This document shows positions 29,341 to 41,196 of a stretch of 45,002 nucleotides of DNA, piece after piece. Under the pieces are notes generated by a model that searched no databases, was not told the DNA's origin, and worked only from the letters and a program-made list of their open reading frames with translations. The stretch lies in the IMG/VR virus record IMGVR_UViG_3300020442_002957, positions 1-45,002 of that record, one strand, 5' to 3'. Numbering within the stretch: the first letter of the stretch is position 1; every line of letters starts with the position of its first letter. The DNA comes from a virus. Position numbers and translations under genes: made by a program.

Positions 29341-30939
29341 ATGGCAAAAGATGTACAATTTGGTGACGTAAGTCGCTCAAAAATTATTAAAGGTGTAGAC
29401 GTGCTGGCAAACGCAGTTCGTGTTACACTAGGTCCAAAAGGACGAAACGTAATTTTACAACAACCATTTAAGCCGCCACACGTTACTAAAGACGGTGTGA
29501 CAGTAGCCCGTGAGATCTTCTTAAAAGATCCAATTGAAGATATGGGTGCTCAGATGGTTAAGGAGGTAGCAAGTCTTACAGCAGTAGATGCTGGTGACGG
29601 AACTACTACTGCAAGTGTTCTAGCACAGAGCATTGTAAAAGAAGGATACAAGTATGTAACTTCTGGAATGAATCCAATGGATCTAAAGCGTGGTATGGAT
29701 ATTGCTACAGATGCTATCGTAGAACAATTAGATAGTATTAGTAAGCCTTGCAACAGCAACAGTGAAATTGAACAGGTCGGTTCTATTAGTGCTAACTCAG
29801 ATGAGAGCATTGGTAAACTTATTGCAGAAGCAATGGACCGTGTAGGACAAGACGGAGTTATCACTGTTGAAGAAGGACAAAGTCTTAAGAACGACTTAGA
29901 AGTTGTTGATGGTATGCAGTTTGATCGAGGTTATCTATCTCCATACTTTATGAACAATCAAGAAAAATTGAATTGTGTACTCGAAGAACCTTACATCTTA
30001 CTAACTGATGAAAGCATTACTAATATTCAAAATCTTGTACCATTACTTGAAAAGGTAATTCAACAAGGTAAACCATTGTTAGTAATTGCAGAAGATGTTG
30101 AAGGCGAAGCACTAGGTACTCTTGTAATGAACACTGCAAGAGGTATTGTTAAGGCTTGTGCAGTTAAAGCACCAGGCTTTGGCGAGCGTAGACGTGAAAT
30201 GCTACAAGACATGGCGGTGCTTACAAAAGGTACAGTGATTTCAGAAGATGTAGGATTATCATTAGATAAGGTTACACTAGATCATTTAGGAACTGCACAG
30301 AGAGTTGAGATCAATAAAGAAACAACTACTATTGTAGATGGTGCAGGTACTAAGGAAGATATCCAACAACGTATTGACTACATTAAGAAGTTACTTGATG
30401 ACACAGAATCTAGTTACGACAAGGAAAAAGCAATGGAGCGTCTAGCAAAACTAGCAGGCGGTGTTGCTGTAATTAAAGTTGGAGCGGCTACAGAAGTAGA
30501 AGCCAAAGAAAAGAAGGATCGTATTGACGATGCTTTACATGCAACTAGAGCCGCAGTAGAAGATGGCATTGTTGCAGGCGGAGGTATTGCACTACTTAGA
30601 GCCAAACAACAACTAGCAGATTTGACAGGCAAAAATGCTGACCAAGATGCTGGTATTAAGATCGTGCTAGATGCGATTGAATCACCATTACGCCAAATTG
30701 TAGCTAATGCAGGTGTAAGTGCTGATGTTGTGATTGCTAATGTACTCAAAGGAGAAGGTACATATGGCTATGATGCGGCAGAAGATACATATGGTGATAT
30801 GATTGAAAAAGGTATTATTGACCCAACTAAAGTAACCAAAACTGCACTATTAAATGCAAGCAGTATCGCTGGTATGATTATTACTTCAGAATGTTCTATT
30901 GTGGATATTGAAGAAAAAAACAAGCCAGAAGATGAATAA
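29341..30939 (+). CDS. groEL: GroEL-type chaperonin
   Basis: A 532-residue Hsp60. Signature segments are present: [42 protein letters not shown] (catalytic Asp of the ATP site), the apical domain with [19 protein letters not shown], and [18 protein letters not shown]. The C-terminus ends KNKPEDE and lacks the GGM tail, so cavity properties may differ. No groES-like gene is in the window; it could use host GroES. A GAGGATAAC site precedes the ATG. Probably folds phage structural proteins. Confidence 0.95.
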
Positions 30940-30964
30940 TTGGTAAAATAATTGATAAATAATA

Positions 30965-30993
30965 TTGACATTGTAGTAGTAAGATGCTATTAT
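30965..30993 (+). promoter_or_regulatory. Sigma-70-type promoter of the Hsp20 gene
   Basis: TTGACA, 17-base spacer, TATTAT; an overlapping TATAAT lies three bases later. An upstream GATAAATAA (late-like word) is close by. Confidence 0.7.
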
Positions 30994-30997
30994 AATG

Positions 30998-31020
30998 TTG
31001 TAGCGCCGGAAGGGCTACAA
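30998..31020 (+). repeat. 5' leader hairpin of the Hsp20 transcript
   Basis: TTGTAGC pairs with GCTACAA around a nine-base loop, right at the expected transcript start. May stabilise the mRNA or act as a thermosensor (speculative). Confidence 0.5.
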
Positions 31021-31052
31021 AGTTAAATCTTGCTTAATAAAGGAGAAAAAAC

Positions 31053-31517
31053 ATGACAAGACTAACAACTCTAGACTTACCCTCAATACATAGACACTTT
31101 GTAGGATTCGACAGAATGTTCGATGAAATGGACAGAATCTTCGAAAACTCTACTAAAGGACAAGGGTATCCACCATACAATATTGCACAACTAAATGAGA
31201 ACGAATACATGATCTCAATTGCTGTAGCAGGATTTGGTATGGACAACCTTTCAATTGAAAAGGACAAAGATACACTTAAAATTGAAGGAACTGCTCCAAA
31301 AGGAGACGAGGATGTAAATTATCTACACAGAGGAATTGGTGGAAGATCATTCCGTAGAGAGTTTACACTAGCAGATCACGTTGAAGTCCACAATGCTGAA
31401 CTTAAAAATGGTATGCTAAACATTCACCTAAAACGTGAAGTTCCAGAAGAAATGAAGCCTAAGAAGATTGAAATCAACGCAGGCCAAACTATCGAAGGAA
31501 CTGTTTCCGAGAAGTAA
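31053..31517 (+). CDS. Small heat-shock protein Hsp20 (IbpA-like)
   Basis: A 154-residue alpha-crystallin-domain holdase. FDEMDRIFE near the N-terminus, then YPPYNIAQLNENEYMISIAVAGFGMDNLSIEKDKDTLKIEG and YLHRGIGGRSFRREFTLADHVEVHNAELKNGMLNIHLKREVPEE follow the IbpA pattern. The last segment, EINAG, takes the place of the usual I-x-I tail. Hsp20 is a frequent gene of marine T4-like phages. Own promoter, 36 bases of AGGAG-containing leader after the hairpin. Confidence 0.9.
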   Translation: MTRLTTLDLPSIHRHFVGFDRMFDEMDRIFENSTKGQGYPPYNIAQLNENEYMISIAVAGFGMDNLSIEKDKDTLKIEGTAPKGDEDVNYLHRGIGGRSFRREFTLADHVEVHNAELKNGMLNIHLKREVPEEMKPKKIEINAGQTIEGTVSEK

Positions 31518-31524
31518 TAAGTCT

Positions 31525-31546
31525 GGGGGAGTGAAATACCTCCCCC
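31525..31546 (+). repeat. Intercistronic hairpin between hsp20 and clpS
   Basis: GGGGGAG and CTCCCCC pair around an eight-base loop without a T run. More likely an mRNA stabiliser or partial stop than a full terminator. Confidence 0.55.
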
Positions 31547-31562
31547 TAAACAAGGAGTAATT

Positions 31563-31871
31563 ATGACTGACATTCTTGAAGATATTAAACTAGATGAAAA
31601 GCTCAAAGAAGATATCGAAGAGCCTAAAAAATATAAAGTAGTCATGCTAAATGATGACAAAACTCCTATGGAATGGGTCATCGGCATACTTATAGAAATT
31701 TTCAAACACGATAACAACACAGCTCAACAACTCACTCTAACCATTCATAACGAGGGATCTGGTATTGCTGGCATATATAGTTATGAGGTTGCTGAAACAA
31801 AAATGCAAGAAGCAACTCAACTTAGCCGGAATAATGGATTTCCGCTTGTGATTAAATTAGAGAAAGAGTAA
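31563..31871 (+). CDS. clpS: ClpS-type N-degron adaptor
   Basis: A 102-residue adaptor that delivers N-end-rule substrates to ClpAP and can block other ClpA substrates. After a disordered acidic N-terminus (~1-22), YKVVMLNDDKTPMEWVIGIL gives the NDxxTPM pocket. The core then continues through HNEGSGIAGIYSYEVAETKMQEA and GFPLVIKLEKE. The pocket residues are intact, so it should bind N-degrons. CAAGGAG precedes the ATG; it overlaps the next gene by one base. Confidence 0.9.
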   Translation: MTDILEDIKLDEKLKEDIEEPKKYKVVMLNDDKTPMEWVIGILIEIFKHDNNTAQQLTLTIHNEGSGIAGIYSYEVAETKMQEATQLSRNNGFPLVIKLEKE

Positions 31872-32419
31872 TGTCAAATTTAAAAGAGCTAACTTGGGAA
31901 CATCATAAAAACGCAGAACGACAAGCATTTGTAAAAGAGCTAATGGGTGGCAAAATTACAAATGAACGTTATGCAACCTATCTTTATAACCAACATCCGC
32001 AATATGATATATTAGAAGCAATGGCTATGATCCATGGTATATTTGACGGTGCTCCTGCACTTCGTAGAGCTCCAAGTATTATGGCAGACTTTGAAGAATT
32101 ATGGGCTGGAGGAGATAAAACTCGTCCAAAAATATGTCCTGTTGTAGGCGAATATGTAGAATATCTAAAACCTTTAGCACAAGATCGAGATAGACTAATG
32201 GCGCATGTTTATGTAAGACACATGGGCGATCTAAGTGGTGGTCAAATGATTAGTAAGCGTGTACCTGGTAGAGGAAGATTCTATAAATTTAAACAAGATC
32301 ACGATTTCTTAAAACAACATATTAGAGGACAACTTGACGATAGTATGGCAGAAGAAGCAAAGGTATGTTTTGACTTTGCTACTAAATTATTTAAACAAAT
32401 GATGGAGATGAATAAGTGA
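31871..32419 (+). CDS. Heme oxygenase (HO-1 type)
   Basis: A 182-residue enzyme that opens heme to biliverdin IX-alpha, CO and Fe2+ using reductant. LTWEHHKNAER places the proximal His at residue 12, and HVYVRHMGDLSGGQMISKRVPG is the distal helix with the Gly-rich kink. Somewhat shorter than cyanobacterial HO1 (~240). Start overlaps the clpS stop by one base. Directly followed and overlapped by a bilin reductase, so biliverdin is passed on. Confidence 0.9.
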   Translation: MSNLKELTWEHHKNAERQAFVKELMGGKITNERYATYLYNQHPQYDILEAMAMIHGIFDGAPALRRAPSIMADFEELWAGGDKTRPKICPVVGEYVEYLKPLAQDRDRLMAHVYVRHMGDLSGGQMISKRVPGRGRFYKFKQDHDFLKQHIRGQLDDSMAEEAKVCFDFATKLFKQMMEMNK

Positions 32420-33102
32420 TCTGGGAAAAACTTATAAATTGTAAAGATGAAATTATTAAAGTATTCGATAGCAAAGCAACAGAAATAGCAGAAGATGGAT
32501 TGGATTATTTTAACAGACCAGAATCTGGTTGGATCAACAGAGTATGGGCAAACGATAATATTAGACGAGCTCATATTGATGTAGTAGATGCAAGAGACAG
32601 CAAAGGTCTTTGGATGATGCATGTATGTATTTTTCCTACACTAGATAATCCTGCTCCTATATATGGCTTTGATGTTATTGCAGGTAAGAATAAAATGACT
32701 GGAGCCTTTCATGATTTTTCACCTAGTTCAGATCCAGATCATCCTATGATACAAGGATACTTTGAAAGTGTAGAACATTTTGTTCCTGAAAAACAACGCG
32801 AACTACCTGAATGGGCTAGAAATATTTTTACAGGCAAAATGCTTGCCGCAGGTAATGTAAAAACAGATGAAGAAGCATCTGAAATAATCCGCATTGCACT
32901 AGACAACTTACATGCTTATTTTGACGAAGTGGGTGCTACAAAAGGTGAAGGCGATCAGTCACTTGTTGCCGCTTCACAAGACTATTATTGTCACAATCAG
33001 CAACAGAATCCACACACAGCAAATGTTATGAAAAGTCTCGGACTGCCAGAAGAGGACGTAGACAAATTCTGTACTGACATGCTGTTTCCTAAATTAAACT
33101 AA
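32416..33102 (+). CDS. Ferredoxin-dependent bilin reductase (PcyX/PcyA-like)
   Basis: A 228-residue FDBR-family enzyme reducing biliverdin with electrons from ferredoxin. The core WMMHVCIFPTLDNPAPIYGFDVIAG contains the conserved Asp region, followed by GAFHDFSP, and the C-terminal SLVAASQDYYCHNQQQNPHT is typical. By context with heme oxygenase in a phage of a non-phototroph it fits PcyX, described from marine phage metagenomes as making phycoerythrobilin. I cannot separate it from PcyA or PebS by motif alone. GTG start, four-base overlap with the heme oxygenase gene. Confidence 0.85.
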   Translation: MIWEKLINCKDEIIKVFDSKATEIAEDGLDYFNRPESGWINRVWANDNIRRAHIDVVDARDSKGLWMMHVCIFPTLDNPAPIYGFDVIAGKNKMTGAFHDFSPSSDPDHPMIQGYFESVEHFVPEKQRELPEWARNIFTGKMLAAGNVKTDEEASEIIRIALDNLHAYFDEVGATKGEGDQSLVAASQDYYCHNQQQNPHTANVMKSLGLPEEDVDKFCTDMLFPKLN

Positions 33103-33208: not shown

Positions 33209-33235
33209 GACGAGCTTTACCGCTCGTCTTTTTTT
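33209..33235 (+). terminator. Rho-independent terminator
   Basis: GACGAGC, a six-base loop, GCTCGTC and seven T. It separates the GroEL-to-bilin block from the curli-type operon. In the preceding 33103-33208 I see a CATAAATA late-like word near 33157 but no gene or tRNA. Confidence 0.9.
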
Positions 33236-33244
33236 GTGAAAAGA

Positions 33245-33251
33245 TAAATAC
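33245..33251 (+). promoter_or_regulatory. T4-like late promoter of the curli-type operon
   Basis: GATAAATAC ten bases after the terminator, followed by a 7-bp hairpin and the GGAGGGCAA site. The only visible promoter before csgF. Confidence 0.6.
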
Positions 33252-33253
33252 TT

Positions 33254-33275
33254 ACGAGACAGAGGGCGGTCTCGT
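33254..33275 (+). repeat. 5' leader hairpin of the curli-type operon
   Basis: ACGAGAC and GTCTCGT pair around eight bases, two bases before the ribosome site. Same layout as at 5851-5870. Confidence 0.6.
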
Positions 33276-33276
33276 T

Positions 33277-33285
33277 GGAGGGCAA
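33277..33285 (+). promoter_or_regulatory. GGAGGGCAA ribosome-binding site of csgF
   Basis: Followed by A-ATC-TTG. At the lipase gene the same site runs straight into A-ATG, so ATC stands where an ATG is expected; the TTG three bases later (33290) is the likely start. Confidence 0.6.
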
Positions 33286-33289
33286 AATC

Positions 33290-33751
33290 TTGAAAACACT
33301 TATTTTTATTATCACAACTCTCATGGTCGCTCAAGCCGCGGCTAGTGAAATGAACTGGGGATTTAAATCACCATCATTCCATTACGGTAATGGATATTCA
33401 ACTCATGTACTTACTGTTGAACAATTACAGTTCAATAGGAAAAAAGAACGTGATGATGAAGCACGGGCTGAAGCAGAGCGAATTGAGCGTGAACTAGAAA
33501 ATACAACTCTATCTAAATTTGTTAAAAACGTAGAATCAAGAATTTATGCAACTCTATCAAAGCAGATGGTTGATGCGATGTTCGCAGAATGTAGTACAGG
33601 TTGTGCTACAACTGGTACAGCTGAAATTGAAGGTTCTACTATCACTTGGACCAAAGACACTACTACAGGCGAAATTAGTCTAGAAGTAATAGAAGCTGAT
33701 GGCTCGACAACAACTGTCACAATACCAGGTTCAGGGGAGTTTAACTTTTAG
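33290..33751 (+). CDS. csgF: CsgF-like curli assembly factor
   Basis: A 153-residue exported protein. The signal peptide KTLIFIITTLMVAQAAA is cut before SEMNW. MNWGFKSPSFHYGNGY corresponds to the N-terminal CsgF segment (F..P.F) that inserts into the CsgG pore. TLSKFVKNVESRIYATLSKQMVDAMF matches the CsgF helix. GSTITWTKDTTTGEISLEVIEADGSTTTVTIPG is the terminal beta-sheet with the T.G......D. pattern. An extra charged helix (~45-70) is not in E. coli CsgF. The start is TTG (or ATC) set by the GGAGGGCAA site. First gene of the cassette, abutting csgG. Role: couples subunit nucleation to the channel at the outer membrane. Confidence 0.8.
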   Translation: MKTLIFIITTLMVAQAAASEMNWGFKSPSFHYGNGYSTHVLTVEQLQFNRKKERDDEARAEAERIERELENTTLSKFVKNVESRIYATLSKQMVDAMFAECSTGCATTGTAEIEGSTITWTKDTTTGEISLEVIEADGSTTTVTIPGSGEFNF

Positions 33752-34558
33752 ATGAAGATAATATTATTACCTATAATTTTATGTGCATTATTAGGCGGCT
33801 GTGCGGCACCAGGAAGTCTTAAAGGACTTAGCAATGCTGATCCTATGCCTAGTATACAAAAGTCACCTATACCAGAGATGTTGGCCGCAGTGCCACCAAT
33901 TGAAGGTAAAAAGATTACTGTTGCTGTCTATAGTTTTAGTGATAAGACAGGACAACGTAAACCATCAGACACAGTATCAAACCTAAGTTCAGCAGTTACA
34001 CAAGGTGCAGAAGTTTGGGTTATCAAAGCATTACAAGAGGTAGGTAATGGTAGCTGGTTTGAAGTTGTTGAAAGAATTGGCATGGATCATTTGATTAAAG
34101 AACGTCAATTGATTCGTAACACAAGAGATGTGTATGAAAAAGAATTAAAGAGTGGACCTACACCCCTTAAGCCTATGTTGTTTGCAGGACTACTATTAGA
34201 GGGCGGAATAGTTGGTTATGATGCAAACACGGCTCAAGGCGGTGTAGGTGCTAGATATTTAGGAATTGGTACTCAAACAGAATACCGTGTTGATACTGTC
34301 ACTGTAGTGATGAGGCTTGTAAGTGTTAGCACAGGTAGAGTACTTATGAGTGTAGCAACTCAAAAAACAATAGCAAGCCATAGATCCGGAGCGGATATAT
34401 TTAAGTTCTTTGATATGGGAACTAGACTGGTAGAGTCGGAGACAGGCTTTTCAGTCAATGAACCGGTTAACTATGCTGTTAGGGCGGCCATTGAGGCAGG
34501 CATAGTTGAACTGATTTATGAAGGAGAAAGAAAAGAACTATGGAAGTTCAGAAAGTGA
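33752..34558 (+). CDS. csgG: CsgG-like curli secretion channel lipoprotein
   Basis: A 268-residue outer-membrane lipoprotein forming the type VIII secretion pore. Lipobox LGGC, Cys17. The family order is complete: ITVAVYSFSDKTGQRKPSD, SSAVTQGAEVWVIKAL, WFEVVERIGMDHLIKERQLIR, then LLEGGIVGYDANTAQGGVGARYLGIG (transmembrane hairpin 1 region), TQTEYRVDTVTVVMRLVSVSTGRVLMSVATQKTI, and FKFFDMGTRLVESETGFSVNEPVNYAVRAAIEAGI. Full length versus E. coli (277). No gap after csgF. Virtually certain family assignment; cargo is probably the two curlin-like proteins next door. Confidence 0.93.
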   Translation: MKIILLPIILCALLGGCAAPGSLKGLSNADPMPSIQKSPIPEMLAAVPPIEGKKITVAVYSFSDKTGQRKPSDTVSNLSSAVTQGAEVWVIKALQEVGNGSWFEVVERIGMDHLIKERQLIRNTRDVYEKELKSGPTPLKPMLFAGLLLEGGIVGYDANTAQGGVGARYLGIGTQTEYRVDTVTVVMRLVSVSTGRVLMSVATQKTIASHRSGADIFKFFDMGTRLVESETGFSVNEPVNYAVRAAIEAGIVELIYEGERKELWKFRK

Positions 34559-34564
34559 GGGCAA
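34556..34564 (+). promoter_or_regulatory. TGAGGGCAA ribosome site of the first curlin-like gene
   Basis: Overlaps the csgG stop and ends two bases before the ATG at 34567, deciding this start over one at 34540. Confidence 0.55.
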
Positions 34565-34566
34565 AT

Positions 34567-35274
34567 ATGCTTAAAATACTAACCGTTCTCCTGATGCTTT
34601 TTGGGTCTACGGCATTCGCAAATGAGATTTATATTGATCAAGTTGGCGATAACCTAGACTTAGACATTACACAGGATGGACAAAACAACAAAGTTGGTAC
34701 AGACCAAGCTGACATGACGTTGAGTGGCGATGATATGACTTTTGCTATTACACAAACAGGTAATACAAACACTATCGTTGCAACCATCAAAGGCACAGAC
34801 TATACAGGTTCATGGACATTTACAGGTAATTCAAACGCTGTAGATTTACAATGTTCTAGTGCATCAACAGGAAAATGTGACACTGTAACACTTAATATTA
34901 CAACAACTGGTGACGACAACACATTTGATTTTGATATAGGTGAATCGACTGACGCAGATTCAGCTACTGTAAGTTTTACAGTTGATGGTGATAACAACAT
35001 CAGTAACACTGATATTGACGGAACAAGCGTAGCATTAACAGTTATAATGGACAACTCAGCTTCATTAGCAACTACTAGTGCAAATTCCGATGAAGGAAAC
35101 GTATTGGACATTGATATTGATGGCAATGGTGATGTAAACGGTCATACAGTAACACTAGACATTACTGGTGGTGGTAGTACCTACGATATTAATCAAAGTG
35201 GAATCTACGACAACACTGTGAATGCTACATTCGATGGTGATAGCCAAGATGTTGACATAACACAGAGCGACTAG
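34567..35274 (+). CDS. Curlin-like exported repeat protein 1
   Basis: A 235-residue exported protein. Signal peptide MLKILTVLLMLFGSTAFA, then NEIYIDQVGDNLDLDITQDGQNN, shared with the second curlin-like protein. The mature chain is Asn/Asp/Thr/Gly-rich with about ten short strand-turn units of the form I-x-Q-x-G-x-x-N (ITQDGQNN, ITQTGNTN, INQSGIYDN, ITQSD). This matches the Q..G..N logic of CsgA/CsgB repeats, though many units have Asp or Thr in place of Gln. It is acidic, unlike typical CsgA. Probably an amyloid-like fibre subunit or nucleator exported through CsgG. Confidence 0.75.
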   Translation: MLKILTVLLMLFGSTAFANEIYIDQVGDNLDLDITQDGQNNKVGTDQADMTLSGDDMTFAITQTGNTNTIVATIKGTDYTGSWTFTGNSNAVDLQCSSASTGKCDTVTLNITTTGDDNTFDFDIGESTDADSATVSFTVDGDNNISNTDIDGTSVALTVIMDNSASLATTSANSDEGNVLDIDIDGNGDVNGHTVTLDITGGGSTYDINQSGIYDNTVNATFDGDSQDVDITQSD

Positions 35275-36438
35275 ATGAAACTTTTATTAGTGATCGCAAC
35301 CATTCTCTTATTCTCAAATCCAGCCCATGCGGCTTTGGAGGACGCAGGCTCTATTGGGTCCATCAAAGGCAGTGGTGTACTTGAGCGTGGAAATGATGTG
35401 ATCACAGGTGATAAGGGTGTTACTGTACAAATGCAGGACACTGCTGTCACAGCCAACGGAACTATGCGTATCGATTTCTTCGATGAAACAAGAGTTGATC
35501 TTACAGAACATGCAAGATTGACTATTGATGAATTCGTATACGATCCAGCAAATGATGTTGGTAGTCTTTCGATCAAAGCGGGTCTTGGCGGTGTACGCTA
35601 TGCATCAGGCCAGATAGCAAAAAAATATCGTCAAAACGTAAAGATCAAAACACCTTCTGCTACTATCGGGGTTAGGGGAACCGATTTTTCAATGGTAGTA
35701 GATGAGATGGGTGGTAGCATGATAACTCTGTTACCTTCATGTGACACAAATGGTATGTGTTATGTTGGAGAGATAGAAGTTAGCACCGACGTGGGGACTG
35801 TTGTCATGAATCAAGCCTTCCAATCAACCATGACATCCACAAGGATGCAACCCCCATCTCCCCCTTTACTTATTGAAGCTGACGAGTCTATGCTCAACAG
35901 TTTGATAATACTTCGCAAGCGTACACCTTATGACGAAGCTGAAGATGTTTATTATAGGCATGCTAAACGTGCAGATTTTTTAGGATTAGATTGGTTAGAT
36001 GTTGACTTACTTGATTCGTCGAGTTGGCTTGATACTGAAAGTTTGTGGGTTACAGCATTGGATGAAAGTGATTGGCGTCTGGGAGATATGCTTTATGATA
36101 TCCTGGATCAATTAAACGAGGCACTAAGGGCATTATTTGAAGATGAACTAATAAGGCAAAACGCTCTATTAATGAGACCAGATACAACTACATACGGCTT
36201 TGATGCCACAACGGGTATACGTTTGACAAAAGAAGGCGATAAGTGGATATGGGAGAGAGAAGATAGAGCAGGAGAAAACTACATAAGGATCAAATTAGAT
36301 CAAAACTATGGATACGATATAAATGTTAAACAAAGTGATTTTGAAATATACGGATACAAGTTGGGTGTTTCAACTAACAACAGCATTAATATTAAGCAGT
36401 GCGATAATGGTTGTTCCAACGATAGCTTATTCGAATGA
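35275..36438 (+). CDS. FecR-domain exported protein with curlin-like C-terminus
   Basis: A 387-residue exported protein. Signal peptide MKLLLVIATILLFSNPAHA, then a FecR domain (~25-170): GSIGSIKGSGVLERGNDVITGDKGVTVQMQDTAV, RIDFFDETRVDLTEHARLTIDEF, KIKTPSATIGVRGTDFSM. A helical middle with repeated LLDSSSWLDTESLW-type acidic segments follows. The end (YIRIKLDQNYGYDINVKQSD...NSINIKQCDNG) resembles curlin units. FecR domains are periplasmic sensor or ligand modules, and in bacteria such proteins often neighbour CHASE2 cyclases. No base lies between it and the upstream stop; it overlaps the next gene by 116 bases. May be a fibre-linked sensor. Confidence 0.8.
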   Translation: MKLLLVIATILLFSNPAHAALEDAGSIGSIKGSGVLERGNDVITGDKGVTVQMQDTAVTANGTMRIDFFDETRVDLTEHARLTIDEFVYDPANDVGSLSIKAGLGGVRYASGQIAKKYRQNVKIKTPSATIGVRGTDFSMVVDEMGGSMITLLPSCDTNGMCYVGEIEVSTDVGTVVMNQAFQSTMTSTRMQPPSPPLLIEADESMLNSLIILRKRTPYDEAEDVYYRHAKRADFLGLDWLDVDLLDSSSWLDTESLWVTALDESDWRLGDMLYDILDQLNEALRALFEDELIRQNALLMRPDTTTYGFDATTGIRLTKEGDKWIWEREDRAGENYIRIKLDQNYGYDINVKQSDFEIYGYKLGVSTNNSINIKQCDNGCSNDSLFE

Positions 36439-37138
36439 TCTCTACATTAACCAAGTAGGAGATGATCTCACTCTGTCTATAACACAAGACGGAGAAGACA
36501 ACACTATTGGCACAAGCTCTGTCCCTATAGATTTGGACGGTGATGATATTGATGTAACACTAGTTCAAGAAACAGATGGAGCATCAATTGTTCTATCTAT
36601 AGATGGCAATAACAATACACTTGTTGCAAAACAAAAGTGTTCAGAAAGTACTTGTAATGCAGACTCAATGGATTTTAACATTGTTGGTAATAACAATAAT
36701 GTAAAAGCGGGCCAAGGCTACAAGATTCGAAGTAATGGTGATTATGACTACGACTATCAAGAACATGGAGGGCATGACATGAATGTTGATATATCAGGAC
36801 ATTATAATACACTTAAACTTAGTCAGCGTAGCAACAATAGTATTAGCAATCATAATATGGACGTAGATATAAATTGGGATAGTAATAATGTACATGTAAT
36901 TCAAGAACACAATGCTGATAAAAGTTTAGACCTTACAATTAACAACAGATACAATGATGTTACTATACATCAGCGTAAAGCACACGGACACACAGCAACA
37001 ATAACAATAGATGGCACATATAACACACAATTAGATTTACAACAAGGCACAAACAGTACAACACAAGGTTTATCATATACTTTAAATCAATATTGTACTA
37101 CACCAGGCGGGTGCGCGGTTACCGTTACTCAAGAATAA
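36323..37138 (+). CDS. Curlin-like exported repeat protein 2
   Basis: A 271-residue exported protein with a hydrophobic signal (LTTALILSSAIMVVPTIAYS), then NDLYINQVGDDLTLSITQDGEDN, closely matching curlin-like protein 1. It has at least eight repeat units of ~22 residues (LTLSITQDGEDN, VNVDISGHYNTLKLSQRSNN, VDINWDSNNVHVIQE, ITIDGTYNTQLDLQQG, YTLNQY) and is His-rich in the middle. The N-terminal ~38 codons overlap the FecR gene in another frame. The ATG at 36323 lacks a site; a GTG near 36365 would still keep the signal peptide, so the true start is uncertain. Likely co-fibre or minor subunit. Confidence 0.75.
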   Translation: MLNKVILKYTDTSWVFQLTTALILSSAIMVVPTIAYSNDLYINQVGDDLTLSITQDGEDNTIGTSSVPIDLDGDDIDVTLVQETDGASIVLSIDGNNNTLVAKQKCSESTCNADSMDFNIVGNNNNVKAGQGYKIRSNGDYDYDYQEHGGHDMNVDISGHYNTLKLSQRSNNSISNHNMDVDINWDSNNVHVIQEHNADKSLDLTINNRYNDVTIHQRKAHGHTATITIDGTYNTQLDLQQGTNSTTQGLSYTLNQYCTTPGGCAVTVTQE

Positions 37139-37155
37139 TCGCAAAATATATTTTT

Positions 37156-37164
37156 GGAGGGCAA
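37156..37164 (+). promoter_or_regulatory. GGAGGGCAA ribosome site
   Basis: Four bases before the ATG at 37169; same word as at csgF and the lipase gene. Confidence 0.6.
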
Positions 37165-37168
37165 AAAA

Positions 37169-37570
37169 ATGAAATATATTTTAACTATCATAGCTCTGAC
37201 TGTGGCAAGCACAGCATGGGCAAATCCAAGCAACGAAGCAATGAAGGCATGCTTGGCAAAATTTAATTACACACCAGACCAGTTTGATACATTTGATTGG
37301 AGCAAAGCCGCGGCTTGCCATTCAGACTATCGTGTTGGTGTTATGCAAGCAGAGTACGCAGAAATGCGTGACTTCCTAAAACACAATCCACGTTATCGTG
37401 TACCAGGACAAAGCCAAAACAAGTGTTGGGGTAAGCCACGTGAAATGCCGTTTGAAAGTGCATACATCAAGCAAACTGCAATGGGCTTTGAAGCAGGAGT
37501 AAGTTACAAAGATACTCTACCAGCAGGCTGTTATGAAAACGGTCCTTGGGATAATAGAGATGAAAACTAG
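37169..37570 (+). CDS. Exported protein of the curli-type cassette, unknown
   Basis: A 133-residue exported protein. Signal peptide KYILTIIALTVASTAWA, mature chain ~115 residues with four Cys (ACLAKF, AACHSD, NKCWG, AGCYEN) likely in two disulfides, and many aromatic residues. No recognised family, but it sits in the cassette and uses the cassette's GGAGGGCAA site. Could play the CsgE or CsgC chaperone role by position; sequence does not show that. Confidence 0.65.
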   Translation: MKYILTIIALTVASTAWANPSNEAMKACLAKFNYTPDQFDTFDWSKAAACHSDYRVGVMQAEYAEMRDFLKHNPRYRVPGQSQNKCWGKPREMPFESAYIKQTAMGFEAGVSYKDTLPAGCYENGPWDNRDEN

Positions 37571-37697
37571 TATAGCAATAGCAGTAGTATTTCTAGCATT
37601 TGCAAGTTTATGCTACTATGATCCAGGTCGTGAATACTGGGAAGCAGTAGGTCCACGCTGGAATAAAATGTTTAACCCGGATACTTACAATGATTGA
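37560..37697 (+). CDS. Tiny membrane/exported protein
   Basis: A 45-residue ORF starting inside the end of the previous gene (11-base overlap) and ending eight bases inside the next. The N-terminus is hydrophobic (KTSIAIAVVFLAFASLC), with a possible lipobox-like FASLC, then an aromatic-rich tail. Overlaps on both sides are typical of real genes here. Confidence 0.55.
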   Translation: MKTSIAIAVVFLAFASLCYYDPGREYWEAVGPRWNKMFNPDTYND

Positions 37698-38004
37698 ATT
37701 AGCATTAGGACTTTCACTTCATTTAGGCTTGGCTGACAGCTACAATGAAGTTCACCCACATATTAGATATATTGAAAACGGCTATATGGCTGGAGCATAC
37801 TATAACAGCGTAGAAAATATAAGCACTTACGCAGGTTATAGATGGGAATATGAAGACTTTGGTTTAGAAGCGGCAGTAGTTACTGGATATCCAGAAGCAG
37901 ATATTGTTCCATATGTACGTGGAACTTACAAAGATTTCTTTGTAGCACCTGCAATGGAGAGAGGAACTGTTGGTGCAGTTATAGGATACGAGTTCAAGTT
38001 CTAA
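37690..38004 (+). CDS. Small beta-strand-rich protein with barrel-like C-terminus
   Basis: A 104-residue protein built of alternating strands with aromatic girdles (YMAGAYYNSVENISTYAGYRWEY, FGLEAAVVTGYPEADIVPYVRGTYKDFFVAPAME), ending YEFKF, a BAM-type terminal signature. There is no classical signal peptide; the N-terminus (IELALGLSLHLGLADS) is weakly signal-like. It may be an outer-membrane barrel or a tail-tube-like beta protein. Last gene before the cyclase, two bases from the late box. Confidence 0.55.
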   Translation: MIELALGLSLHLGLADSYNEVHPHIRYIENGYMAGAYYNSVENISTYAGYRWEYEDFGLEAAVVTGYPEADIVPYVRGTYKDFFVAPAMERGTVGAVIGYEFKF

Positions 38005-38011
38005 TAAATAC
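38005..38011 (+). promoter_or_regulatory. Late promoter box abutting a start codon
   Basis: ATAAATAC-TGT-ATG at the cyclase start (38015); no Shine-Dalgarno. Confidence 0.5.
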
Positions 38012-38014
38012 TGT

Positions 38015-40069
38015 ATGACTAAGTGGATCACACATTGGACAATAGCCTTTATCACGGCTGTAGTGATGATATTAATTCATTACGGGGATGGTACCATTGT
38101 TCAAACGGCTCGGCTCAAGCAATTTGATCTACTCCAAACTTCAAGTGAGCCTATATTGTCCCAGGATATTGCAGTAGTCACCATCGACGAGACAGCTATT
38201 GAAAAGTACGGTCAATGGCCCTGGAAGCGTGATGTTCTTGCAGATGTAATCTGGAGACTTCGTGAAGCAGGTGCTGGTATCATTGTGATGCCTATGCTAT
38301 TCTCAGAACCAGATAGACTTGGTGGAGATTTAGCACTAGCCGAAGCACTTGTAGAGAACGGTGTAGTGATTGCCCAAACAGGAACTACGTCCGGTGTAAG
38401 CCGTAACTCTGTACCGCGTGGAGTTGCGAAGATAGGTGATCCTTTACCATTCTTGTTTGAATGGCCAGGGATGCTGGGGCCTATTCCAATGCTAGGAGAA
38501 AATGCCGACGGTGTAGGTGTATTAAACACTTTTCCAGAAATCGATGGCGTGGTACGTAGAGTGCCTCTTCTTATGCGTATTGGGGACAATACGTATCCGG
38601 CTATGGCAGTGGAAGTTATACGAGTTGCTACTGGCGCTCCTTCCTATCAGGTTAAGGCTAACCAAGGAGGCATAGAAGCTATAAGAGTACCAGGTTATCC
38701 AGTTATTAGAACGGATCCGAATGGACAAATTTGGTTGCGTTGGAATAAAGAGTTTGAAACTGTTTCAGTTGCGGAGGATGATTTTAGCATCGTAGAAGGC
38801 AAAACAGTAATAGTAGGCGTAACAGCAGAAGGCTTAGGTGGCATCATTGCTACACCACAAGGCCCACAGTACAATTACTTGCCAGCGGCAATAACACTAC
38901 AAACTGTAATAGATGGTGACCAAATCGAAAGGCCCTATTGGGCTTTCCTTGCAGAATTGTTAGCGACGGGAATCTTAGGCATAGCCCTTGTGCTGTTAGC
39001 TCGTTTTGCACCTTACTGGTTAGTTGGTATTAAGATTGTAGCGTTTAGTGGTTTGCTTGTGTATGGTGCTCACTATGCATGGACAAATTATTTGTATCTA
39101 TTAGATATCACTATGCCGTTGGTTACTGTACTGTTAGTAGGATTACATGCTGTATTCAATAGATTTGTAAGCGAATATTTTCAGAAACAAGCAATTAAGA
39201 AACAGTTTGCTGGTTATGCTTCACCCACTGTTGTTAGATTGCTTCAAGAAAATCCTGCACTTATTAAAGAAGGCATGAAAAAAGAAGTGAGTATTTTATT
39301 TTCAGACTTGCGTGGATTTACTCCTTTAGGCGAATCATTCGGTGATGATGTTAAAGGCTTAACAAAAATTATGAACGGCTACATGGACGCAATTACACAA
39401 CCTATATTAGATTCAGATGGTATGGTTATAAAATATATTGGTGATGCAAGTATGCACATACATAACGCACCTATTGATGATCCAGAACATCCTAAAACAG
39501 CAGTACAGTGTGGTTTGAATATGTTAAATGCAGTGGAGAAATTTAATGAAAAAATTACCGCAGAAGGTAGACCTCCGGTGGGTATGGGTGCCGGTATTAA
39601 TACTGGGCTTGGCTATCTTGGCGAAATGGGATCAACAGCCAGACATAGTTATGATGTTCTCGGGGATGCTGTAAGCACAGCGGCTAGGATAGAATCTAAA
39701 TGTAAAGAGTACGGTTGTTTATTGTTAGTAGGCGAAAGCACTTATAATGCAACAAAAGATGATTTCTTTTATCTTAAAGTAGATGATTTACAAGTTAAAG
39801 GTAAAAGTGTTGGGTTATCTATCTATACAGTTTTAGACGGAATGAATAACAAATCAGATTTAAAAAGCCAAAAGTTTCATAATGAAATGCATGAAGCATA
39901 TCAAGCACAAAAGTTTGATGAAGCAATTTACATATGTGAAAAACTAAAAAGACATTTCGATGCCAAAATGGTTGGATATTATAACATGTGGATTGAACGC
40001 TGTGAATACATGAAAACACAGGATTTACCTGCTGATTGGAATGGCGTGTTTATAGCGGCTACAAAATAA
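38015..40069 (+). CDS. CHASE2-domain class III adenylate cyclase
   Basis: A 684-residue membrane receptor cyclase. TM1 lies at ~6-23. A periplasmic CHASE2 domain (~35-300) contains DIAVVTIDETAIEKYGQWPWKRDVLADVI and RVPLLMRIGDNTYPAMAVEVIR. Three TMs (~308-392) follow, then a cyclase domain (~425-605). Catalytic elements: metal Asp431 (FSDLRGFT) and Asp477 (IKYIGDAS); Lys473 and Asp547 (YDVLGD) specify ATP; Arg558 is the transition-state Arg. Ser554 replaces the usual transition-state Asn (DAVSTAAR). Expected to make cAMP in response to an envelope signal, perhaps from the FecR-domain protein upstream. Highly unusual for a phage. Confidence 0.9.
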   Translation: MTKWITHWTIAFITAVVMILIHYGDGTIVQTARLKQFDLLQTSSEPILSQDIAVVTIDETAIEKYGQWPWKRDVLADVIWRLREAGAGIIVMPMLFSEPDRLGGDLALAEALVENGVVIAQTGTTSGVSRNSVPRGVAKIGDPLPFLFEWPGMLGPIPMLGENADGVGVLNTFPEIDGVVRRVPLLMRIGDNTYPAMAVEVIRVATGAPSYQVKANQGGIEAIRVPGYPVIRTDPNGQIWLRWNKEFETVSVAEDDFSIVEGKTVIVGVTAEGLGGIIATPQGPQYNYLPAAITLQTVIDGDQIERPYWAFLAELLATGILGIALVLLARFAPYWLVGIKIVAFSGLLVYGAHYAWTNYLYLLDITMPLVTVLLVGLHAVFNRFVSEYFQKQAIKKQFAGYASPTVVRLLQENPALIKEGMKKEVSILFSDLRGFTPLGESFGDDVKGLTKIMNGYMDAITQPILDSDGMVIKYIGDASMHIHNAPIDDPEHPKTAVQCGLNMLNAVEKFNEKITAEGRPPVGMGAGINTGLGYLGEMGSTARHSYDVLGDAVSTAARIESKCKEYGCLLLVGESTYNATKDDFFYLKVDDLQVKGKSVGLSIYTVLDGMNNKSDLKSQKFHNEMHEAYQAQKFDEAIYICEKLKRHFDAKMVGYYNMWIERCEYMKTQDLPADWNGVFIAATK

Positions 40070-40311: not shown

Positions 40312-40650
40312 TTACTTTTTACCGGTACTATTAAACGCATCATTCTGAACGTCACTGTATTTAACAATGATTTCATCCAGTTGATCTTTTTGTTCCTTTG
40401 TAAGTGTTTTTGTTATTACGCCTTTGTGTTCCAATACCATGCTCAACTTCATACTCATACGAATCATGTCGTTGTCTAACATACGCACACGGTCAACTAG
40501 TTTGATAAGCGTTCCCATTGTTTCACCAATGACAGGATCAATAACTTCTGTTACCCATTTCCAGATAAAGAAAATAAAGTATCCCATACCGCAAGCGGCA
40601 ATAATAGGAAACCCATAATCACTAATCGCTTGAGCTAGATCTATCTCCAT
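40312..40650 (-). CDS. One-TM protein, paralogue of the 40901-41179 product
   Basis: A 112-residue protein. An N-terminal TM (YGFPIIAACGMGYFIFFIWKWV, ~12-33) is followed by an amphipathic helical region (ETMGTLIKLVDRVRMLDNDMIRMSMKLSMVLEHKG). The order EI/DFL-xxxI-x-(D/E)-x-GFPI, TM and LD(N)RV.xxNDxx.xxx.LS is shared with the product at 40901-41179. AGAGGGCAA eight bases before the ATG. Holin-like or fibre-anchor roles are guesses. Confidence 0.65.
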   Translation of the reverse strand: MEIDLAQAISDYGFPIIAACGMGYFIFFIWKWVTEVIDPVIGETMGTLIKLVDRVRMLDNDMIRMSMKLSMVLEHKGVITKTLTKEQKDQLDEIIVKYSDVQNDAFNSTGKK

Positions 40651-40879
40651 TTTGTTTTTTGCCCTCTTCGTATTTCCTTAGCAATGTAGTCAGTTCATCA
40701 GTTTTTCTTAACCAACCATGTTCATTTACAATAAACACATCGCCTGGTTTGTATAGCCAGTGATCTTTGGGAGTGCCATCTTGTGCATAACCCATAACTT
40801 CACCGTCCCAATCGCCTTTAACACGGAATGCTTGTCCCTTGGCGCCAGCACTTTCTACAACATAATCTATCCACATCAT
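40622..40879 (-). CDS. Small soluble protein between the TM paralogues
   Basis: An 85-residue protein starting ATGATG, with GGAGGGCAA four bases ahead. A beta-rich core (YVVESAGAKGQAFRVKGDWDGEVMGYAQDG...LYKPGDVFIVNEHGWLRK) has the 'KPGDVF' turn of SH3-like folds; the tail is charged and its 3' end overlaps the next gene's ribosome site and start by 29 bases. Function unknown. Confidence 0.65.
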   Translation of the reverse strand: MMWIDYVVESAGAKGQAFRVKGDWDGEVMGYAQDGTPKDHWLYKPGDVFIVNEHGWLRKTDELTTLLRKYEEGKKQNGDRSSSSD

Positions 40880-40883
40880 TTTT

Positions 40884-40892
40884 TTGCCCTCC
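40884..40892 (-). promoter_or_regulatory. GGAGGGCAA ribosome site
   Basis: Minus strand, four bases before the ATG at 40879. Confidence 0.6.
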
Positions 40893-40900
40893 AGTTGTGG

Positions 40901-41179
40901 TTAGTCTCGTCTAGCGTCTTCTTTACCTTCGTTGGCCGCTATACGATCTACATTAGGTTTTACACCTAGTGCATAACTTAGGAGTGCATCAATTTTAACA
41001 AGATCGTTATTCATAGTCTGTACACGATTGTCTAATTGACCAATGATGTTTTTGAGAGTTGTAACCGAATCCGTTACTCCTGCAAGAATAAACTTTAGCG
41101 TAACGAATACAAATACACCTGCCGCAAGCGCACCTGCGATAGGAAATCCTACTTCTGAGATTAATGTTAAAAAATCCAT
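40901..41179 (-). CDS. One-TM protein, first gene of the minus-strand module
   Basis: A 92-residue protein. The N-terminal TM (VGFPIAGALAAGVFVFVTLKFI, ~10-31) is followed by TTLKNIIGQLDNRVQTMNNDLVKIDALLSYALG, and then a charged tail. Paralogue of the 40312-40650 product. The ATG at 41179 follows GGAGGGCAACAAT; an ATG at 41194 overlaps that site and is rejected. A late box lies just upstream (41197-41203). Confidence 0.65.
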   Translation of the reverse strand: MDFLTLISEVGFPIAGALAAGVFVFVTLKFILAGVTDSVTTLKNIIGQLDNRVQTMNNDLVKIDALLSYALGVKPNVDRIAANEGKEDARRD

Positions 41180-41183
41180 ATTG

Positions 41184-41192
41184 TTGCCCTCC
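41184..41192 (-). promoter_or_regulatory. GGAGGGCAA ribosome site
   Basis: Minus strand, four bases before the ATG at 41179; it decides this start. Confidence 0.6.
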
Positions 41193-41196
41193 ATAA

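Follow-up and report, generated by a model that had tools for sequence, protein, structure and literature searches.

The stretch of DNA analysed here, a marine virus record of 45,002 bases (IMG/VR record IMGVR_UViG_3300020442_002957; hereafter the window), carries a curli cassette at 33245-40069, whose open reading frames (ORFs) encode, in order, CsgF, CsgG, a curlin-repeat protein (c1), an exported FecR protein, a second curlin-repeat protein (c2), then three small proteins and finally a CHASE2 adenylate cyclase. In our judgement the chances are about even that this cassette is a curli (type VIII) export system that is borne by the phage, expressed late and fitted with a built-in FecR/CHASE2 sensor of its own export state. 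The gene set is already published, and the new part is the evidence for FecR-CHASE2 coupling, together with an output that is unexplained. Should FecR and CHASE2 prove to read curli export, the module would be a concrete and testable device made of a handful of genes. CHASE2, for which few signals are known, would then gain a class of ligand, and there would be a chromosomal bacterial counterpart for study.

Proposed coupling of the FecR protein to the CHASE2 cyclase

Evidence for a sensor pair comes from partial Mantel tests on pairwise distances among 57 loci, with CsgG, CsgF and c1 as controls. With all three controlled, FecR-domain distance predicts CHASE2 distance (r=0.41, p=0.0005), and the partial r is 0.39 after dereplication. 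It is 0.18 in CHASE2 class 1 (0.35 in the largest cyclase subtype) and 0.39 in class 2. Once FecR is controlled, CHASE2 does not track CsgF or c1 at these loci, and its partial correlation is -0.10 with CsgG over all loci and 0.11 (p=0.07) with its own fused cyclase domain. Within class 1, CsgG, CsgF, c1 and the cyclase domain correlate with CHASE2 also, as is expected from shared ancestry. The FecR and cyclase genes are mostly non-adjacent, and simple linkage is thus unlikely to be the cause of the co-divergence. Only the FecR domain carries this association: the middle part of FecR adds nothing once the domain is controlled. Among the residues most associated with CHASE2 class, none is a single diagnostic FecR site. 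The pattern supports the FecR domain and CHASE2 as a sensor pair, in a statistical sense that does not amount to proof of contact.

Both genes belong to the module in every viral locus where this could be judged. The run from CsgF through CsgG and c1 to FecR is unbroken in nearly every intact viral locus; it is followed by c2 in most of them (no c2 was recognised in, for example, L053, L056, L057 and L120), then by variable cargo, and then by the cyclase, which lies on the opposite strand in some loci (L053, L066, L071, L130). A CHASE2-cyclase was found at 74/74 distinct testable FecR loci, and csgFG and the FecR/cyclase genes are neighbours throughout the relatives, so the joint module put forward in a preliminary description of this DNA has held up. 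By their ratios of nonsynonymous to synonymous substitution rates (0.06-0.29, window against three relatives, with c2 highest in each comparison), the six main genes are under purifying selection.

The same set of genes occurs in two Caulobacteraceae metagenome-assembled genomes (MAGs), in which CsgF, CsgG, two curlins, FecR and a CHASE2-cyclase form one run (L160 5056-11076, L161 5019-11076). In L160, where the flanks were examined, this run sits among chromosomal metabolic genes. A quick tree search placed the MAG CsgG as sister to all phage CsgG, with a Shimodaira-Hasegawa-like approximate likelihood ratio test (SH-aLRT) value of 93, and the phage set as one clade (98). The MAG copies differ from the window in the order curlin-curlin-FecR and in having the canonical Asn in the cyclase, and each of the two genomes gives 6-7 matches to the cyclic-nucleotide-monophosphate (cNMP)-binding domain. 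This set contradicts the published claim that bacterial curli operons are without FecR and cyclase. It is rare, as no further copies were found among 299 Caulobacteraceae (2/299), and neither FecR nor CHASE2 was found at ordinary curli operons (0/20 extended loci from alphaproteobacterial genomes), whereas bacteria often have FecR beside CHASE2 proteins (33/54 FecR loci). Four loci filed as bacterial contigs (L157, L158, L159, L179) carry the phage-type module and are probably mis-binned; they were left out of the bacterial counts because their copies are phage-like.

The FecR protein was modelled with AlphaFold2 (AF2), using here and below alignments without two rows from the annotated phage collection. 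The model has a confident FecR domain at about residues 25-200, a long helix at 266-300 and a separate C-terminal beta unit at 308-375. Its best Protein Data Bank (PDB) match is the cell-surface signalling domain of PupR (E=8.6e-6). The signal peptide leads into the FecR domain, the cytoplasmic anti-sigma part of FecI-FecR signalling is absent, and no sigma factor gene was found among the cassette proteins. What the window does have is the arrangement of bacterial FecR/CHASE2 receptor clusters, namely an exported FecR with a CHASE2 receptor nearby. The tail follows the curlin-repeat-like pattern Y.IN..QG....YDY.LG...N.I.I.Q, and its profile scores 18.3 against c1 and 19.0 against c2, compared with 14.1 or less in 30 column shuffles. 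Other FecR slices reach at most 13.1, except the signal-peptide slice (23.1) and one that overlaps the tail (17.1). Q375 is invariant in 57/57 homologues, bacterial ones among them. By these measures the curlin-like end, which had been noticed from the letters alone, is real and conserved, yet the resemblance is modest and short; contact between this tail and curlin may be envisaged.

The export machinery and its substrates

Gene content and order were as first described, and Pfam profiles agree: curated cut-offs were exceeded for CsgF, CsgG, the Curlin_rpt of c1, FecR, CHASE2 and Guanylate_cyc. The CsgG pore, CsgF and curlin-repeat substrates that mark curli (type VIII) systems are each present, and the CsgE of the E. 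coli type is not. E. coli CsgG structures match the window CsgG over residues 8-266 (E=2e-48, PDB search), and CsgF covers positions 4-132 of the 132 in its Pfam model. A single-sequence PDB search with CsgF returned no CsgF structure and chance coiled-coil matches only. The possibility of an unusual CsgG constriction was rejected, since other alphaproteobacterial curli pores share the S/T..L pattern. CsgE was found in none of 16 records (the window with 8 other phage records, as the preliminary description had anticipated for the window, and 7 curli-bearing bacterial genomes, five other alphaproteobacterial ones among them). CsgE is therefore not a defining component of the alphaproteobacterial curli type, and the export set is supported as complete in that manner. 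The Pfam scan found no CsgD or CsgC among the cassette proteins. More distant CsgG homologues (24-31% identity) occur in other large phages, namely Brevundimonas phages ON529851-ON529860 and Caulobacter phage CcrPW.

The two repeat proteins have an N-terminal motif in common (YIDQVGDNLDLDITQDG in c1, YINQVGDDLTLSITQDG in c2), as was first noticed, and it resembles a first curlin repeat. The AF2 model of c1 consists of serial short beta strands, with a predicted local distance difference test score (pLDDT) of 86 and a predicted template modelling score (pTM) of 0.80, in line with the strand-turn fold that the preliminary description had assumed. A Foldseek search with this model returned nothing at E<=0.001 and only weak matches resembling beta helices, so that the repeat fold is supported and the family is not named. 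c1 exceeds the Curlin_rpt cut-off itself, and c2 qualifies as a curlin-repeat substrate through its family: the window c2 by itself is under the cut-off (E=0.056), and 42/64 aligned c2 proteins match. The earlier statement that no classical CsgA is evident was thus too strong, as curlin repeats are found in c1 and in most relatives of c2.

Median identity among homologues is 32% for c2, 49% for c1 and 62% for CsgG. The 64-sequence alignment shows c2 to be hypervariable between conserved caps, with the first repeat kept. Its C-terminal cysteine pair is present in 104/106 sequences, an extra N-terminal region of more than 200 residues in 10/73, and a PA14 domain in 4/64. The low identity, conserved caps, extra N-terminal regions and PA14 fit a fast-diversifying adhesive or tip subunit as the putative role of c2, while family knowledge and the conservation pattern suggest that c1 is a conserved fibre subunit. 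PA14 lies N-terminal to the curlin repeats in c2 of L002 (8967-10292) and L130 (10613-11917). We also inspected whether c2 type follows CHASE2 class, and saw no clear pattern.

Curli modules occur widely among marine phages, and one study described the order CsgF, CsgG, CsgA/B, FecR, CsgA/B, adenylate cyclase in two families of pelagiphages and offered defence against superinfection, capture of siblings and import as hypotheses (PMC9599517); a CsgF/CsgG cluster had been reported earlier (PMC7029224). The preliminary description was right that curli genes were known in pelagimyophages, and it overlooked that FecR and the cyclase had been reported as part of the module (PMC9599517). That type VIII module, found in myo- and podophages, has the same genes in the same order as the window, which differs in that c2 is separated from the cyclase by three additional small genes and that no histidine kinase lies just upstream. 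CHASE2 and PA14 are unmentioned in the main text of PMC9599517, and we did not find FecR-CHASE2 co-divergence, the FecR tail or the bacterial copy reported in the literature. HTVC008M (KC465899) and Melnitz (MZ577095) have the gene set and order of the window, with identities of 43-44% for FecR, 49-52% for CsgG and 49-69% for the cyclase; both are without small cargo genes before the cyclase, and HTVC008M has an N-terminal PA14 domain in c2 and a cyclase of the Ser/Asn type. The Melnitz paper says that csgA and csgB are missing (PMC9004378). As the Melnitz record itself annotates two curlin-repeat proteins, and given the Curlin_rpt matches among c2 proteins, this statement is not supported. 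E. coli curli (csgBAC/csgDEFG) have CsgG, CsgF and curlin repeats in common with the window, in which CsgE, CsgD and CsgC were not found and FecR and the cyclase are additional. Bacterial FecR/CHASE2 clusters, such as a biofilm operon with FecR, a CHASE2 kinase and a regulator (BiofilmReg, PMC5192318) and the FecR clusters with CHASE2 cyclases of Campylobacterota (PMC9239204), also place an exported FecR beside a CHASE2 receptor; in the window, the pair comes with a curli exporter and belongs to a virus. These clusters are precedents for the proposed sensor, as are the CHASE2 cyclases of Sinorhizobium described below.

Proposed mechanism, its output and competing explanations

In the proposed mechanism, CsgG and CsgF would form an outer-membrane pore, c1 would be the fibre subunit and c2 an adhesive or tip subunit. 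FecR would remain in the periplasm, where its curlin-like end would touch curlin subunits or the fibre base at the pore. The FecR domain, in turn, would contact CHASE2 of the inner-membrane cyclase. The state of export or of the fibre would then set cyclic-nucleotide synthesis, and the sensor would probably report fibre state to an enzyme that makes cyclic AMP (cAMP). That binding is direct, that the signal runs this way, that cAMP is produced and that fibres form are steps that we infer. The most likely benefit is that the infected cell presents an altered surface at a late stage, by which neighbours adhere or are captured, or other phages are blocked. The window cyclase is assigned to class III by domain and fold; the metal-binding D431 and D477, the substrate Lys K473 and the Arg R558 are kept in all homologues that are complete there.

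Several observations weigh against this mechanism. The FecR tail has no significant link to CHASE2, partial Mantel tests can overstate significance, and FecR and CHASE2 could be linked merely through a third partner. Cultures infected with Melnitz showed no clumping (PMC9004378). The transition-state Asn of the cyclase is replaced by Ser554 in the window and by Ser in 50/63 fully readable cyclases, which may alter cyclase activity. In addition, the cAMP read-out in the host, as the preliminary description had it, is not supported: the cNMP-binding domain was found in 0/16 phage records and in 5/118 genomes of Pelagibacteraceae (SAR11), a group that may not be the host of the window, and 3/118 of these genomes have a class III cyclase match. 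Therefore, the cAMP output is unexplained, at least for SAR11, a question sharpened by how few genomes of this group have cAMP receptors. In SAR11 itself, a FecR gene lies close to one for a CHASE2 protein whose output is a SpoIIE phosphatase. At L170 (4623-8555), a CHASE2-SpoIIE phosphatase, an exported repeat or barrel-like protein and a FecR protein of 191 residues lie beside PBP2- and RodA-like genes, and the CHASE2 and FecR genes of this locus recur in other Pelagibacteraceae loci.

A bolder reading is a virus-encoded fibre-assembly checkpoint, in which FecR would use its curlin-like end to read curlin at the pore and would drive the cyclase, and the messenger would be private to the infection, requiring an undescribed receiver, as the streamlined host neither makes nor reads it by known means. 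We regard this as unlikely. Somewhat less probable is that FecR and the CHASE2-cyclase sense a signal from outside, such as iron, another phage or a host protein, and that curli are one output among others. FecR domains are signalling modules, and CHASE2 cyclases of Sinorhizobium answer a plant protein ligand via an outer-membrane barrel (PMC13001267), both of which favour an external ligand. However, the window FecR has a conserved curlin-like end and sits between two curlin genes, and no cAMP-responsive regulator was found in the 16 phage records.

It is improbable that CsgG and CsgF are a lysis-timing or import pore, with the fibre genes secondary. Lysis was proposed for Melnitz (PMC9004378) and import in PMC7029224 and PMC9599517, and the holin-like gene pair that flanks the module gives some weight to a link with lysis. 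On the other hand, the pore is accompanied by one or two exported curlin-repeat proteins, CsgG keeps the alphaproteobacterial curli constriction, CsgF matches nearly its whole Pfam model, and an endolysin-like gene is present separately in the window. We hold it slightly more improbable still that FecR acts chiefly in the periplasm as an adaptor or gate in place of CsgE, with a vestigial link to the cyclase. CsgE was not found in these phages and FecR always adjoins c1, but ordinary alphaproteobacterial curli without CsgE have no FecR either, the cyclase keeps its metal, Lys and Arg residues, and CHASE2 co-diverges with FecR. Decoration of the virion by repeat proteins that are not exported, suggested by the late promoter, a position near structural genes and one weak structural PHROG match of c1 (E=0.0016), is very improbable indeed, given that c1, c2 and FecR all have signal peptides and that an export pore is linked to them.

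Layout of the cassette and neighbouring genes

The features of the cassette and its flanks are collected in Table 1. For CsgF, the TTG at 33290 after GGAGG is the more likely start over the ORF start at 33275, and the start of c1 was corrected to ATG 34567. The 5' end of c2 overlaps the FecR gene by 116 nucleotides. The terminator hairpin was also picked up by a scan, in its reverse-strand form. The late promoter of the preliminary description was recovered as an ATAAATA core before CsgF, with a second before the cyclase. In the relatives, ATAAATA is found before CsgF in 48/97 (about 10 expected) and before the cyclase in 32/69 (about 6 expected), and it is not enriched upstream of CsgG, c1 or FecR. 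Thus, from the core in the window and its enrichment in relatives, the module is probably turned on late in infection.

Table 1. Features of the curli cassette and its flanks in the window.
Feature	Position	Strand	Basis and remarks
Intrinsic terminator, GACGAGC-tttacc-GCTCGTC-T7	33209..33235	+	Ends upstream genes; read from sequence
T4-type late promoter core GATAAATA, ATAAATA at 33244-33250	33243..33250	+	Before CsgF, directly after terminator
CsgF	33290..33751	+	Pfam CsgF E=2.2e-12; ORF from 33275; start from ribosome-binding site
CsgG outer-membrane secretion pore, lipoprotein signal (GGC)	33752..34558	+	Pfam E=4e-49
c1, probable conserved curlin-repeat subunit, signal peptide	34567..35274	+	Curlin_rpt E=4.4e-7; AF2 model
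Exported FecR protein	35275..36438	+	Pfam FecR E=1.5e-7; AF2; PupR match; tail test
c2, probable hypervariable curlin-repeat subunit, C-terminal Cys pair	36323..37138	+	64-sequence alignment
Small exported protein, recurrent cargo	37169..37570	+	Signal peptide from sequence; homologues in 18 other loci
Small protein, one hydrophobic segment, recurrent cargo	37560..37697	+	ORF from 37533; cluster of 9 loci; hydropathy
Small protein, recurrent cargo	37690..38004	+	C-terminal part of PagP-annotated family, phrog_3600 E=6.7e-10; homologues in 20 other loci
Second ATAAATA late-promoter-like core	38004..38010	+	Before cyclase
CHASE2 adenylate cyclase: periplasmic CHASE2, C-terminal transmembrane (TM) segments, class III cyclase	38015..40069	+	Pfam CHASE2 3.1e-40, Guanylate_cyc 3.1e-17
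hol1, small one-TM holin-like protein; putative member of the system	40312..40650	-	phrog_18771 E=9.5e-27; flanks module in relatives
hol2, hol1 paralogue; putative member of the system	40901..41194	-	phrog_18771 E=4.1e-31; holin family phrog_4898 E=0.0017

The holin-like pair (window 40312-41194) occurs in 40/42 loci that have a CHASE2 gene and more than 3 kb downstream, and it adjoins the module on either side: in relatives it is placed on the minus strand after the cyclase, or on the plus strand before CsgF. Among the 80 closest hol2 matches, a curli module is present in 27/28 loci that are anchored on hol2 and extend 8 kb to either side, an association that may be due in part to a single phage lineage. 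Across 50,697 phage records, hol2 matched only Melnitz and HTVC008M, both of which bear curli genes. On the other side of the cassette, the genes before the terminator encode a chaperonin, small heat-shock-like proteins, ClpS, a heme oxygenase and a bilin reductase. The heme oxygenase and bilin reductase genes (31871-33102) lie upstream of CsgF, and each is found in 35/80 loci with at least 3 kb upstream. They are preceded by genes for GroEL, an Hsp20-like protein and ClpS (29341-31871), of which GroEL occurs in three other loci only.

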